IMG/VR virus record: IMGVR_UViG_3300029319_000471
Span: 4,605-25,122 of that record
Origin: a virus
DNA length: 20,518 nt
Strand: one strand, 5' to 3'
This document shows, piece by piece, positions 4,382 through 20,518 of this stretch. The position numbers and the translations under genes are program-made. Position 1 is the first letter of the stretch. Every line of letters begins with the position of its first letter. The notes under the pieces are model-generated. The model saw nothing but the letters and a program-made list of their open reading frames with translations. It was not told where the DNA came from and did not search any database.

Positions 4382-4557
4382 GGCGAGATAACTGGTTAAA
4401 TTTTGAGTTTTTTCTCGCAACAGAACTTGGAAAAACATTAGTTGAATTAAGAGAGGCTATAACAGAAGAAGAACTTATTTATTGGGCTGCATATTATGAA
4501 CTAAAAACTGAAAGGCATGAAAAAGAAATGCAGCGACAAAAGGCCAAATCAAGGTAA
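4028..4557 (+). CDS. Tail assembly chaperone, -1 frameshift (gpGT-like) fusion
   Basis: The join is at 4375: bases 4028-4375 in frame 0, then 4375-4557 in the -1 frame. Codons GCA AAA AAC (4367-4375) contain the classic heptamer A AAA AAC at 4369-4375, immediately before the frame-0 stop. The -1 frame continues for 60 residues, beginning RIRRDNWLNFEFFLATELGK and ending 'EKEMQRQKAKSR', so the fusion is 176 aa. The -1 ORF has a stop at 4354-4356 and no ATG, GTG or TTG near its beginning, so a frameshift is the natural route. The extension contains an acidic 'EAITEEELIYWAAYYEL' segment, like T-domains that bind the tape measure. It fills the gap before the tape-measure gene. Confidence 0.8.
4369..4418 (+). 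promoter_or_regulatory. Programmed -1 frameshift signal: slippery site plus predicted hairpin
   Basis: The slippery heptamer A AAA AAC occupies 4369-4375. After a 7-nt spacer, GCGAGA (4383-4388) can pair with TCTCGC (4413-4418). Inside it AACT (4390-4393) can pair with AGTT (4406-4409), leaving a 12-nt apical loop and a small asymmetric internal loop. Spacing of 5-9 nt from slip site to structure is typical for stimulatory hairpins. The pairing was found by eye; the energy was not computed. Confidence 0.7.
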
Positions 4558-4582
4558 TATATAATAAAGGTTATTTGTATTT

Positions 4583-15983: not shown

Positions 15984-16111
15984 TTAATCTTTTCCATTTG
16001 TCTGGTCATAATTCCACCTAAAATATACAAAGGCCCAAGAGTGGGAATAATTAAGAGCATTGATATAATTAAAGTGTGAGAAATCGCTTTCAGTATTGCT
16101 TCTTTAACCAT
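15980..16111 (-). CDS. Possible small membrane protein (43 aa), antisense
   Basis: A minus-strand ORF that exactly fills the space between two rightward genes. It reads MVKEAILKAISHTLIISMLL, then 'IIPTLGPLYILGGIMTRQMEKIN', and contains one clear hydrophobic membrane segment with a charged end. Its start codon shares the sequence CATG (16109-16112) with the start of the rightward gene at 16110, and its stop TAG overlaps the stop of the gene ending at 15983. No Shine-Dalgarno site is visible on either side of the shared start. The amphipathic N-terminus and charged tail look protein-like, but a 43-aa ORF can be chance. A holin role would be a guess. Confidence 0.4.
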   Translation of the reverse strand: MVKEAILKAISHTLIISMLLIIPTLGPLYILGGIMTRQMEKIN

Positions 16112-16343
16112 GTTTCAAAAAATTTGTCAGATAGCCTCATTGTTGTCACTTTTTCTAACCTTGTCAATGTTGGGCGGTTCATACTACGCTTACAGATTTG
16201 TCACCTCTGAGCAATTCAAGGCTAGGGTAATGAATGAGGTGCTTGATAATGTGCAGGGGCTAATGCCCAAAGTATTAGACAATAACCTTCCAAAAATGAC
16301 AGGGCCATCTTTGCTAATACCATCAAAGAAAATTGGTTTATGA
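16110..16343 (+). CDS. Small single-pass membrane protein, cyanophage-like
   Basis: A 77-residue protein with an N-terminal hydrophobic segment at about 8-30 ('IASLLSLFLTLSMLGGSYYAYRF'), then a soluble part 'TSEQFKARVMNEVLDNVQGLMPKVLDNNLPKMTGPSL'. The 'VTSEQFK.RVM.EV...' and '.LPKMTGPS' pattern reminds me of small membrane proteins in marine cyanomyoviruses (memory only). It is probably anchored in the host inner membrane with the C-terminal region on the outer side or in the cytoplasm; topology is not determined. It overlaps the next gene by ATGA. A spanin-like or lysis-related role is possible but unsupported. Confidence 0.6.
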   Translation: MFQKICQIASLLSLFLTLSMLGGSYYAYRFVTSEQFKARVMNEVLDNVQGLMPKVLDNNLPKMTGPSLLIPSKKIGL

Positions 16344-17416: not shown

Positions 17417-17728
17417 ATGAAACTTACAATGCAAAACAAAACAGGTCATCATCTTGAAGATAATGATGAATTTTACTTTGACAATGATATTTTGAACGAT
17501 AAAGTTCATTTATTTTTTAAATCAAATCGAAACAGCGTTGATGAATATTCAATGACAGGTCATCAATTTTTAAATTCTTTTGAACTTTCTATCAATACTT
17601 TAGGTATTGAACACGATACGATGTTAAAAAAAATTGGTAATATTATTTTTGCAAGAATCAAACAGCTTGAAAAAGATTATGAGATGATTCGCGCTCACGA
17701 AAATTCTCAGAAAAAGGAGGCAGTATGA
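17417..17728 (+). CDS. Hypothetical protein of the control-like operon
   Basis: A 103-residue protein with no recognised family. It is charged and soluble: 'HHLEDNDEFYFDNDILNDKVHLFF' is followed by helices 'HQFLNSFELSINTLGIEHDTMLKKIGNIIFARIKQLEKDYEMIRAH'. The start has a proper ribosome site (GAGG at 17409-17412, 4 nt before ATG). The stop overlaps the start of the ParB-like gene (ATGA), so they are one translational unit and may act together. It has no membrane segment or signal peptide. Whether it is regulatory or a partner of the ParB-like protein is unknown. Confidence 0.55.
   Translation: MKLTMQNKTGHHLEDNDEFYFDNDILNDKVHLFFKSNRNSVDEYSMTGHQFLNSFELSINTLGIEHDTMLKKIGNIIFARIKQLEKDYEMIRAHENSQKKEAV
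17713..17720 (+). promoter_or_regulatory. Strong Shine-Dalgarno site (AAAGGAGG)
   Basis: AAAGGAGG lies four bases before the ATG of the ParB-like gene and is nearly a perfect complement to the 3' end of 16S rRNA. It sits inside the upstream coding region. Most structural genes in the window lack such a site, so this gene probably has strong, independent translation. Confidence 0.75.
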
Positions 17729-18681
17729 CCTCCCAAGTCCAAGATGCCCTTTCAACTATCTATGAGGGCATAGAATATTCTCTTGAATTTATTACTCCAG
17801 AAAAAGCACAATTTTATTTGACAAAAAACTTTGAAAATAATCGCAAGATTAGCAGAAATAATCTTGAAGAGTTAAAAAGAGAAATGAAAAATAGTCGTTT
17901 TATTTTATCTGACTCTGCCATTTGTTTTGATACAAATGGCACTCTAGTCAATGGTCAACATAGATTGATGGCTGTTGTTCAAACAGGAATGACTCAACCA
18001 TTTCTTGTTGTCAAAAATATGCCTAGCAAATCCAAGCAAATAATGGATGTTGGTAAATCAAGGTGTATGTCTGATCGTATTACTGTTAGTGGTGTCAAGA
18101 TCAGTAGAAGAGATTGTGCAACCATAAGACACGCTATGGCTGCTATAAATAGTACAACTGGTACTGAGCAGTATTCAAGACCATGCCATGATGCCATAGT
18201 TGCTGAAACTTATTTAAAACATAATCAGTTTCTTTATCTTATGAGTAAAGTCTGTCCCACTAATACAACTAGGGTTAGGTCATTTTTTCTTGGAGCAGGG
18301 TTGAAAATTTATGCTGAAATGACTTACAACACTCAAAATCCAAGACATAAAAAGTACAACCATACAATGAATCCTAAAGAAAGGGCATTACATTGGTTAA
18401 ATATTGTCACTACAGGTATGGCAAGTCCTATTGATGGTGTTGATAGAGATATCAAACCATGTGATAGAGCAGCACAGATTATTTTTACCAAGTCTTGTGA
18501 TAGCAGCATAAAAAGATCATATTGGAATAGTGCTGAAGCCTTTGCTCTTACTGTTAGAGCAGCCCATAATTTTATGATTGGTTTAGATACTCAGTTTCTT
18601 AAAGTTCCTAAAGACGATCCTTTTAGAGATTTCATTGAGTTGCCATCAACCAATAAAATAATGACTATGGCATCAAATTGA
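17725..18681 (+). CDS. ParB/sulfiredoxin-like domain protein
   Basis: A 318-residue protein with the ParB/sulfiredoxin fold in its N-terminal 120 residues. 'FITPEKAQFYLTKNFENNRKISRNNLEELKREM' leads to 'SDSAICFDTNGTLVNGQHRLMAV', where N76-G77-Q78-H79-R80 is the hallmark nucleotide-binding motif, followed by 'IMDVGKSRCMSDRIT'. The rest is a helical C-terminal domain without a recognisable helix-turn-helix or KorB region. Proteins with this domain are common in marine phages and can bind or cleave nucleic acid or hydrolyse nucleotides; the activity here is unknown. There is no ParA in the window. It overlaps the upstream gene and is followed 30 nt later by a ribbon-helix-helix-like gene. Confidence 0.78.
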   Translation: MTSQVQDALSTIYEGIEYSLEFITPEKAQFYLTKNFENNRKISRNNLEELKREMKNSRFILSDSAICFDTNGTLVNGQHRLMAVVQTGMTQPFLVVKNMPSKSKQIMDVGKSRCMSDRITVSGVKISRRDCATIRHAMAAINSTTGTEQYSRPCHDAIVAETYLKHNQFLYLMSKVCPTNTTRVRSFFLGAGLKIYAEMTYNTQNPRHKKYNHTMNPKERALHWLNIVTTGMASPIDGVDRDIKPCDRAAQIIFTKSCDSSIKRSYWNSAEAFALTVRAAHNFMIGLDTQFLKVPKDDPFRDFIELPSTNKIMTMASN

Positions 18682-18711
18682 CGTTACAATGTTCTTAATT
18701 ACTTTTTTATA

Positions 18712-18957
18712 ATGAATGAAAATTTATCACGATTAACAGTTCAGATAACAAAACATCAGCATAAATTATTGAAATATCATGCCAAGCCTGGTACATCAAT
18801 CTCTTCTCTTGTAAGACAAGCACTTGATAGTCACTTTGCTGACGCTGAAGAAGCTCTCAGGGAAAAATACTTTGAGGCAGTAAAGTATGAAGAGTACGAG
18901 AAATACATGGCTGCACAAAAAGAACCAGTAGTAGCTGATGCAAGTTCTTTGTTATAA
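18712..18957 (+). CDS. Probable ribbon-helix-helix DNA-binding protein
   Basis: An 81-residue protein whose first 45 residues match a ribbon-helix-helix pattern: a short strand 'RLTVQITKHQHKLLKYHAK', a turn 'GTSISSLVRQALDSHF', then an acidic helical tail 'DAEEALREKYFEAVKYEEYEKYMAAQ'. Such proteins bind DNA as dimers through the N-terminal strand and act as regulators, antitoxins or centromere-binding proteins. No toxin gene is next to it. The ATG is preceded by AT-rich sequence without a Shine-Dalgarno site. A strong terminator follows at once. Family assignment is by pattern, with moderate confidence. Confidence 0.6.
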   Translation: MNENLSRLTVQITKHQHKLLKYHAKPGTSISSLVRQALDSHFADAEEALREKYFEAVKYEEYEKYMAAQKEPVVADASSLL

Positions 18958-18963
18958 ATAATA

Positions 18964-18997
18964 AGTAGGCAAGTGTAATACCCGTGACTTGTCTACT
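18964..18997. terminator. Bidirectional intrinsic terminator between convergent operons
   Basis: An 11-bp stem pairs 18964-18974 (AGTAGGCAAGT) with 18987-18997 (ACTTGTCTACT), with one G-U pair and a 12-nt loop. Rightwards it is followed by GTTTTATTTT, leftwards by a U-rich run on the other strand (TATTATTTAT). It sits between the rightward gene ending at 18957 and the leftward operon whose last stop (18993-18995) lies inside the stem. Both transcripts could end here. Confidence 0.8.
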
Positions 18998-19616
18998 GTT
19001 TTATTTTGTGAGTATGTGGGATAACTTGATTGGGAATTGTTGTTAATACTACGTTTTTACACGCAACCGCATCTTCATTTATCAATTTTACTCCAAGTTT
19101 TAATTGCTCGGCACATACCTTCATTCTCGCCAGATTGGCCTCTAAACGTGCTTTCTGTAATGCAAACTCCTGTCCTTTTATTTGGTTTTCAGCAGCTTTG
19201 ACGCAAAGATCAGATCCTTCTCCCAATGGTATCTGCAAGCTGATTGTGAAACCATAATTAAAATTATGAGTTGATTGATCAATTCTTGGCTGTTCACTTT
19301 GATATAAAATTTTTCCTGGATTTACTAAATTACCTGAAGCATCCTCTGCAAGGTCATAAATATTAGTTTTAGTTGTGGTAATTCTAGGTGTGCTATAGTT
19401 TTCCCCTTTGGTTACAAATGGTGTAAAGGCTAATGTCGGTTGCTGGCACTGAATATTTCCTCCATAGGTCATCGTTGGAAATCCGCCATTTATGGTTTGG
19501 TAGCCATTGTTTATAACCGTTCCGGAACTGGATGCACTAGGGCTACTCACTGTATTAGCAAGGGTTTTGGGTGATATTAATAATATTATTGAGAGAATAT
19601 ACTTAAGGAAGTACTT
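18993..19616 (-). CDS. Exported protein of leftward trio (gene C), start unresolved
   Basis: The reading frame ends at 18993. A hydrophobic signal-peptide-like segment 'KYFLKYILSIILLISPKTLA' begins near 19616 and leads to the mature part 'NTVSSPSASSSGTVINNGYQ'. The mature part is Ser/Thr/Gly/Asn-rich with four Cys, and then 'YGFTISLQIPLGEGSDLC' and a charged helix 'ENQIKGQEFALQKARLEANLARMKVCAEQLKLGV'. There is no ATG, GTG or TTG in this frame between the signal region and ATG at 19724, 138 bases inside gene B. Likely explanations are an unusual start, a sequence error, or a mutated start; the left limit given here is only where the signal begins. From memory it resembles secreted proteins in marine cyanophages. 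Function is unknown. Confidence 0.6.
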   Translation of the reverse strand, partial: KYFLKYILSIILLISPKTLANTVSSPSASSSGTVINNGYQTINGGFPTMTYGGNIQCQQPTLAFTPFVTKGENYSTPRITTTKTNIYDLAEDASGNLVNPGKILYQSEQPRIDQSTHNFNYGFTISLQIPLGEGSDLCVKAAENQIKGQEFALQKARLEANLARMKVCAEQLKLGVKLINEDAVACKNVVLTTIPNQVIPHTHKIKQ

Positions 19617-20014
19617 TGACTTTCTGTGTTTATAGTGCGCTGAATAGTGCTGGTCGCATCCAAACCGGGCGCAAGGAAATTTTCCGTTATGCTGAATGAT
19701 TCTTGTGGATTTACAATCTCCCATTGGGGCTTGGTAGACAAATTTGGAGTTACCCATTGAAACGAAACTCCATTAACTGTTTGCGTGTTTGTATAGGTAG
19801 CATCTGGTGATATAACTGTGCCATCTTTAACTTGTATGTTATGGCCTTGCAAACTGTAAGAATATCCTGTCCGATAATTTTCCGTAACAATGGTTTCCAC
19901 AATAATAGTTTTACTAGAACTGCTACTTTCCATTTGGCCTGTAGAGAACGATGGAGTGATACCCCCTGCATAAGCACTAGGTACTCCAAATAAAAAAATT
20001 ATCAGCCATTTCAT
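19586..20014 (-). CDS. Exported protein of leftward trio (gene B)
   Basis: A 142-residue secreted protein. A TTG lies one codon upstream, but ATG at 20014 overlaps the stop of gene A (TGATG) and gives the natural N-terminus MKWLIIFLFGVPSAYA, a short signal peptide with a likely signal peptidase cut after Ala16. The mature part is beta-rich and Ser/Thr-rich: 'GGITPSFSTGQMESSSSSKTIIVETIVTENYRTGYSYSLQGHNIQ' and 'SISQ'-style ends 'TSLSIFSQ'. I recall related proteins in marine cyanophages. It should be exported to the periplasm or beyond. It is co-transcribed with genes A and C. No enzyme motif is visible; the function is unknown. Confidence 0.7.
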   Translation of the reverse strand: MKWLIIFLFGVPSAYAGGITPSFSTGQMESSSSSKTIIVETIVTENYRTGYSYSLQGHNIQVKDGTVISPDATYTNTQTVNGVSFQWVTPNLSTKPQWEIVNPQESFSITENFLAPGLDATSTIQRTINTESQSTSLSIFSQ

Positions 20015-20518
20015 CAATCAATTTCAAGCTTTATTGTGTTAGACATTTGTGCTGTCACACCCGGCCCTGTAGCAGATAAGTTAACTGTCATCGCTCCACC
20101 ACTATCCATAGTCATAGCCGTAGTGCCTATATTTCCACCTGCAAAAGTTGTTGTATCTCCGAATATTGGTAATGCAGGTACAGCACCATTGGTAACCGTA
20201 GTATTTGAAGTAGGTATAGAATCGCCTTGGATAAAGCTTTCTGACACAGACCATGCATCCCCTGCGGTGGTAACTGCGTAAGTAGTTGTAGCGTCAATTG
20301 TGGGAACGCCATTAGTGATTTGTGCATCCGTTAAATCTAAAGTACCAATAGCATTTGCAGTATCACCTGCTGTTGGCGTGACATTTGTACCCGATGCCGA
20401 GAAGGTCGTACCGATGCGGTTAGAGGTTGAACTAGCTCCTAATGTACTGACCGAGACAACATTCTGGATTGAGTGATTGATGTCCGCATAAGCTGGCGCA
20501 GATACAAGAAAAATAAAA
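20014..20518 (-). CDS. Exported protein of leftward trio (gene A), 5' partial
   Basis: The frame is open to the right edge, so the start and the first signal-peptide residues are missing; 167 residues are visible. The visible end of the signal peptide is 'FIFLVSAPAYA', followed by mature 'DINHSIQNVVSVSTLGASST', giving a likely cut at AYA-D. The rest is rich in Thr, Gly, Ala and Ser with few charges ('TTFSASGTNVTPTAGDTANA', 'DAWSVSESFIQGD', 'TTTFAGGNIGTTAMTMDSGG') and ends 'AQMSNTIKLEID'. This composition suits a beta-rich secreted or surface protein. The stop overlaps the start of gene B. The smaller ORF that begins at 20247 is only an internal start. Function is unknown. Confidence 0.7.
   Translation of the reverse strand, partial: FIFLVSAPAYADINHSIQNVVSVSTLGASSTSNRIGTTFSASGTNVTPTAGDTANAIGTLDLTDAQITNGVPTIDATTTYAVTTAGDAWSVSESFIQGDSIPTSNTTVTNGAVPALPIFGDTTTFAGGNIGTTAMTMDSGGAMTVNLSATGPGVTAQMSNTIKLEID

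Follow-up and report, generated by a model that had tools for sequence, protein, structure and literature searches.

Genes A, B and C, which run leftward at one end of the analysed stretch of viral DNA (20,518 nucleotides, referred to here as the window), encode the exported proteins of a membrane-directed module of six genes. The other half consists of genes D, E and F, and the module is common to most marine cyanobacterial viruses across three unrelated morphotypes. The module is tentatively read here, with a confidence that falls somewhat short of even, as a late egress or lysis set in which E would be holin-like and B and C, possibly with A, would replace spanins at the outer membrane. When viruses lyse Prochlorococcus and Synechococcus, they drive one of the major carbon fluxes of the ocean, and no assigned function was found for this set of genes, one of the most widely shared among cyanophages. 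The relevant features of the window are as follows.

16110 to 16343, plus strand: gene F (phrog_568), 77 aa, one N-terminal transmembrane (TM) segment
16712 to 17335, plus strand: gene D (phrog_570, T4-GC234), Pro-rich, one C-terminal TM segment and a Lys-rich tail, convergent with C
17417 to 18957, plus strand: three inserted genes between D and C, outside the conserved module
18993 to 19757, minus strand: gene C (phrog_848/1755, T4-GC235, "gp165"), exported, beginning within B
19586 to 19757, minus strand: out-of-phase overlap of B and C, 172 nt from the first candidate ATG of C and 139 nt from the second
19586 to 20014, minus strand: gene B (phrog_650, Pfam DUF6322, T4-GC236), exported
20012 to 20016, minus strand: TGATG junction, in which the stop codon of A overlaps the ATG of B
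20014 to 20518, minus strand: gene A (phrog_564, T4-GC237), exported, first codons missing at the contig end

A previous sequence-only reading had described a tightly coupled leftward trio of exported proteins, and its observations on the DNA itself are borne out: three leftward reading frames occupy 18993–20518 with all remaining window genes rightward, A and B are joined by TGATG, B, C and the incomplete A each show a hydrophobic N-terminus with an A-x-A-like site behind it, and the GC content of 20401–20460 is 0.50 vs 0.344 in the tail-tip gene (0.44 in A and 0.363 in the window). Its description of the coupling holds for A and B and requires correction at the second junction, where C overlaps B by ∼172 nt; likewise the trio is real, but as a unit it is incomplete, since D and F in the window and probably E also belong to it. 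The end of the window is the end of the 25,122-base virus record (G000), and the frame of A is left open there; in the intact relatives L008 and L018 the start of A reads MKKLLPFIFLVSAPAYADINHS. The signal peptide of C lies at approximately residues 45–68, and an A-x-A-like site follows the hydrophobic stretch in 85 of 87 C reading frames. Four cysteines of C are invariant among relatives, and D also carries conserved cysteines, as expected of proteins located outside the cytoplasm.

Neither in the window nor in its relatives is there a start codon beside the signal peptide of C; instead the frame continues back into B, where it reaches an ATG or GTG (TTG in a few loci), mostly at a conserved Trp codon of B. 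In the window the candidates are the ATG codons at 19757 and 19724. The +2 frame of B is open for at least 46 codons in 80 of 80 sequences and the +1 frame in 0 of 80, where the 80 sequences are mutually related rather than independent tests and cover three divergent groups; codon-preserving shuffles reproduce such openness in about 10% of cases (3.4% for the window). Variation at fourfold-degenerate third positions is no lower in the overlap than in comparison regions (0.49 vs 0.45, 0.38 vs 0.42, and 0.41 vs 0.42), so that a dual-coding constraint on the N-terminal stretch of C was rejected and only the openness of the frame, not its sequence, appears to be kept. The N-terminal extension of C is thus probably translated with its sequence barely constrained, and the overlap data support a start of C somewhere inside B. 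A programmed frameshift or a non-AUG start is not needed to account for C, because every relative whose sequence extends far enough has an open frame reaching back to an ATG, GTG or TTG in B. In 9515-10a and NATL2A-133 (L107 5321–6313 and L108 3280–4308) the C frame is open over the whole of B, about 120 codons.

Homologues of A, B and C were detected by tblastn in 344, 418 and 421, respectively, of 50,697 phage records, all under organism names including Synechococcus, Prochlorococcus, Cyanophage, "Marine" or "uncultured", and the B protein of a podovirus used as query matched 50 records. The previous expectation of relatives in cyanophages of other families is supported, with members among myo-, sipho- and podoviruses. 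No function is attached to phrog_564, to phrog_650/DUF6322 or to phrog_848/phrog_1755. An hhalign comparison (97.2%, E = 4e-11) shows A and B to be paralogues that have diverged widely. On the bacterial side only 10 matches were found in 84,980 species genomes, mostly with neighbouring module genes present as well, which suggests binned or co-sorted phage contigs, and a host origin of the genes was rejected on these grounds. The whole module is carried by a 188-kb contig filed as Nonlabens xiamenensis and by a 189-kb Prochlorococcus single-cell contig (L093 and L095), sizes that agree with complete cyanomyovirus genomes lodged in bacterial assemblies.

The grouping of these genes exceeds what chance would give. 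Of the 84 sequences holding both C and D, 83 have the two in convergent orientation, with a median C–D gap of −16 elsewhere, D usually overlapping the 3′ end of C, vs 1664 in the window; L088 and L092 have enlarged gaps as well. The sole contig with D and C on the same strand (L068, 4327–5094) may represent an inversion or a chimeric contig. The genes inserted between D and C in the window encode a 103 aa product, a ParB-like protein (phrog_5931, which is present in MED4-117 too) and a ParD/Arc-like protein of 81 aa. E is a small membrane protein of family DUF6450; its gene stands immediately ahead of A in L008 and L018, the closest relatives, and in the window phage it is probably situated past the contig end. 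Two hydrophobic segments are predicted in E of S-SM1 and NATL2A-133, and in E of L008 only the first is above the cut-off. The name "plasmid stability", given to F by phrog_568 and in many GenBank records, looks like a misnomer for a small protein with one TM segment, and such a function was rejected. B, C, D and E are jointly present in S-SM1 and P-SSP7 and jointly absent from S-PM2 and S-SZBM1, and S-CREM2 lacks B, C and D and has one marginal match to E. Apart from that trace the set is thus present or missing as a whole in the test records, as the sequence-only reading had supposed for its trio, and the scattered single homologues that would have spoken against a unit were not found.

The arrangement of the module differs among phage types. 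In cyanomyoviruses E-F-G-D is convergent to C-B-A; in S-SM1, E-F-G-D lies on the main strand, and the opposite-strand genes in 49 kb are A-B-C and one small ORF opposite hsp20. In siphoviruses E adjoins A, and D and F come after the tail genes, so that E switches operon between myo- and siphoviruses while remaining inside the cluster. In the T7-like phages 9515-10a, NATL2A-133, S-SBP1 and P-SSP7, in which A is not detectable, D-E-B-C lies on one strand between the tail-fibre and terminase genes, and in P-SCSP1u E-B-C is convergent with D. The depositors of P-SSP7 annotated one TM segment in D and two in E (P-SSP7_043) using TMHMM, and a possible signal peptide in B using SignalP. In T7 the same slot holds the two-TM holin 17.5 and the overlapping spanins 18.5/18.7.

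In cyanomyovirus-type loci the motif CTAAATA is found at positions −28 to −37 of A in 16 of 40 cases, compared with a mean of 0.9 and a maximum of 5 in shuffled sequences, and S-SM1 and Syn9 have the variant CTACATA at the corresponding place. NATAAATA/TATAAAT has been given as the late promoter (PMC2984593, PMC3037559). CTAAATA or NATAAATA is found upstream of structural genes too in S-SM1, S-SZBM1 and S-CREM2, and because CTAAATA there stands ahead of structural genes in an orientation that tracks the gene strand, the motif is likely to act as a late promoter.

The AlphaFold2 model of B (pLDDT 78.5) contains two long terminal beta strands, residues 25–48 and 117–141, and in that of C (mean pLDDT 55; 72–78 in parts) a 38-residue helix comes after a long beta hairpin. 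No solved structure matched by sequence, and fold searches returned phage collar and tail proteins, the flagellar L-ring and beta-pore stems, all of them non-significant or very poorly superposed, for which reason a multimeric beta structure in the outer membrane is put forward as a possibility. The best match of B, to the phage upper-tail protein 8egr_I (prob 0.93, E 1.3e-3, TM 0.24, rmsd 28.8), was rejected as a shared long-hairpin shape, and BFVD returned mainly marine-phage relatives without function. C resembles TolC (Pfam OEP) in that its modelled beta hairpin is followed by a long helix, but it has a single hairpin and no repeat, and the homology tests were negative: PF02321 gave a best E of 0.13, in 2 of 57 members, and hhalign a probability of 0.8% against one Prochlorococcus OEP.

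In a late egress set, E, F and D would reside in the inner membrane, whereas B and C, in most cases together with A, would be located beyond it. With its small size, its two predicted membrane segments and its basic tail, E would behave as a class II holin; B and C, plus A in the larger phages, would be secreted via Sec; their long beta strands (those of B and C) might then form an assembly at the outer membrane or within it; and this assembly would carry out the final opening, as spanins do in T7 and lambda, with D and F possibly connecting it to the inner membrane. In the literature no lysis function is assigned to the module. In complete MED4-117, the Pfam families displayed (25 of 27, from a scan of 57 proteins with 6 left out) include no recognised holin, endolysin or spanin, only DUF6450. 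The module resembles the T7 lysis region in position, in its small, predicted two-TM protein and in its out-of-phase overlapping pair of envelope proteins, and differs from it in that no homology is detectable, in that B and C are secreted, beta-rich and devoid of a lipobox or a plain TM-plus-coiled-coil design, and in the additional presence of D and F.

Compared with spanins in particular, the agreement is partial. B and C form an overlapping out-of-phase pair in the lysis region, an arrangement typical of spanins that is not proof of membership. A, B and C contain no lipobox with Cys, only A-x-A-like sites; in C a hydrophobic N-terminal stretch and the 38-residue helix occur together with a cleavage-like site and the long hairpin; in F one TM segment is followed by a short helix-like stretch; and no classical spanin pair was recognised in the module. 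The family match of E is to DUF6450 and to no named holin family. Against the lysis reading, Syn5, S-PM2 and S-SZBM1 do not have the module and must lyse by other means, a TM-plus-coiled-coil protein (gp47) occupying the lysis slot of Syn5, and S-SBP1 has both the module and a TM-plus-coiled-coil gp50 that is possibly a spanin. Because Syn5 manages without the module and S-SBP1 has both, confidence in the lysis reading is restrained. A more specific form of it, in which a mobile egress module of three morphotypes opens the outer membrane by secreted, beta-structured, multimerising proteins unlike spanins or disruptins, and in which the out-of-phase overlap couples translation of two of the subunits, is doubtful.

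The sequence-only reading had proposed a host-altering cassette acting in the envelope of infected cells. The proteins are exported and should indeed act in the envelope, but the late-promoter-like motif in cyanomyoviruses and the position in the lysis-gene slot of T7-like relatives make an optional cassette for the surface or for exclusion a less favoured reading. Envelope remodelling or superinfection exclusion, in which the exported proteins would cover or plug the infected cell's outer membrane, or mark debris, and thereby keep further phages or progeny from adsorbing, would agree with the signal peptides, the beta-rich folds, the lack of an evident virion role and the broad conservation in phages with common hosts. 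It is unlikely given the same motif and slot, the association with E and its two predicted TM segments in each of the three phage types, and the finding that no PADLOC-DB model is matched by A, B, C, D or the inserted genes, on which a defence reading was also rejected.

A trans-envelope conduit, with E, F and D in the inner and C, B and A in the outer membrane, might alternatively move solutes or proteins late in infection without lysis, for example in nutrient uptake. Nearly all products have a membrane segment or a signal, multimeric pores typically have long hairpin strands, and A is labelled "OMP1 protein" in some records; nevertheless, with TolC/OEP homology absent, no solved homologue found and D-E-B-C occupying the lysis slot of T7-like phages, this explanation is improbable. 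That the products are minor virion or virion-associated proteins, such as fibres or an ejected channel, despite their signal sequences would be compatible with late expression and with the location of D and F behind tail genes in siphoviruses, but appears quite improbable in view of the Sec-type signals in A, B and C, their plain "hypothetical" label in the S-TIM5 record, where other genes read "virion structural protein and packaging", and the fact that gp31 and gp32 of P-SCSP1u (C and B) are unnamed in the virion structure paper (PMC10575957). The virion proteome tables of S-SZBM1 and S-CREM2 provide no test of a virion role, as both phages lack B, C and D.

Neither the gene families nor the greater part of the cyanomyovirus cluster is new. 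A cluster of GC218, 219, 234, 235 and 237, often with the "plasmid stability" gene, was described in 15 of 16 cyanomyoviruses and proposed to be a functionally linked, possibly mobile cassette, with no function given (Sullivan et al., 2010, PMC3037559). The window contains A, B, C, D and F homologues from the same gene families; neither the window nor the siphovirus loci showed GC219. Whereas that description concerned cyanomyoviruses only, the cluster is here extended to sipho- and podoviruses. It also gains GC236 (B) as a member, together with the paralogy of A and B, the overlap of B with C, the late motif and the lysis slot. The literature searched, which lacks most subscription journals, contained no report of the three-morphotype unit, of the operon switch of E, of A and B as paralogues, of the conserved overlap between B and C, of the late motif or of the synteny with the lysis slot. 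If the module drives egress, it would offer a genetic handle on the timing and manner of cell bursting, explain roughly 400 sets of "hypothetical" genes together, and add a beta-structured means by which the outer membrane of Gram-negative cells can be opened. Both the unit and its minimal core (D, E, B, C) are now delimited closely enough for knock-out or expression.

Cyanopodoviruses share the TM-plus-coiled-coil gene (Syn5 gp47, S-SBP1 gp50) in the lysis slot, which also holds a small conserved protein (Syn5 gp48, S-SBP1 gp46); the lysis-slot coordinates of the two shared genes are 6393–6836 in L113 and 4415–4576 and 5942–6196 in L109, and both are further candidates for lysis functions.
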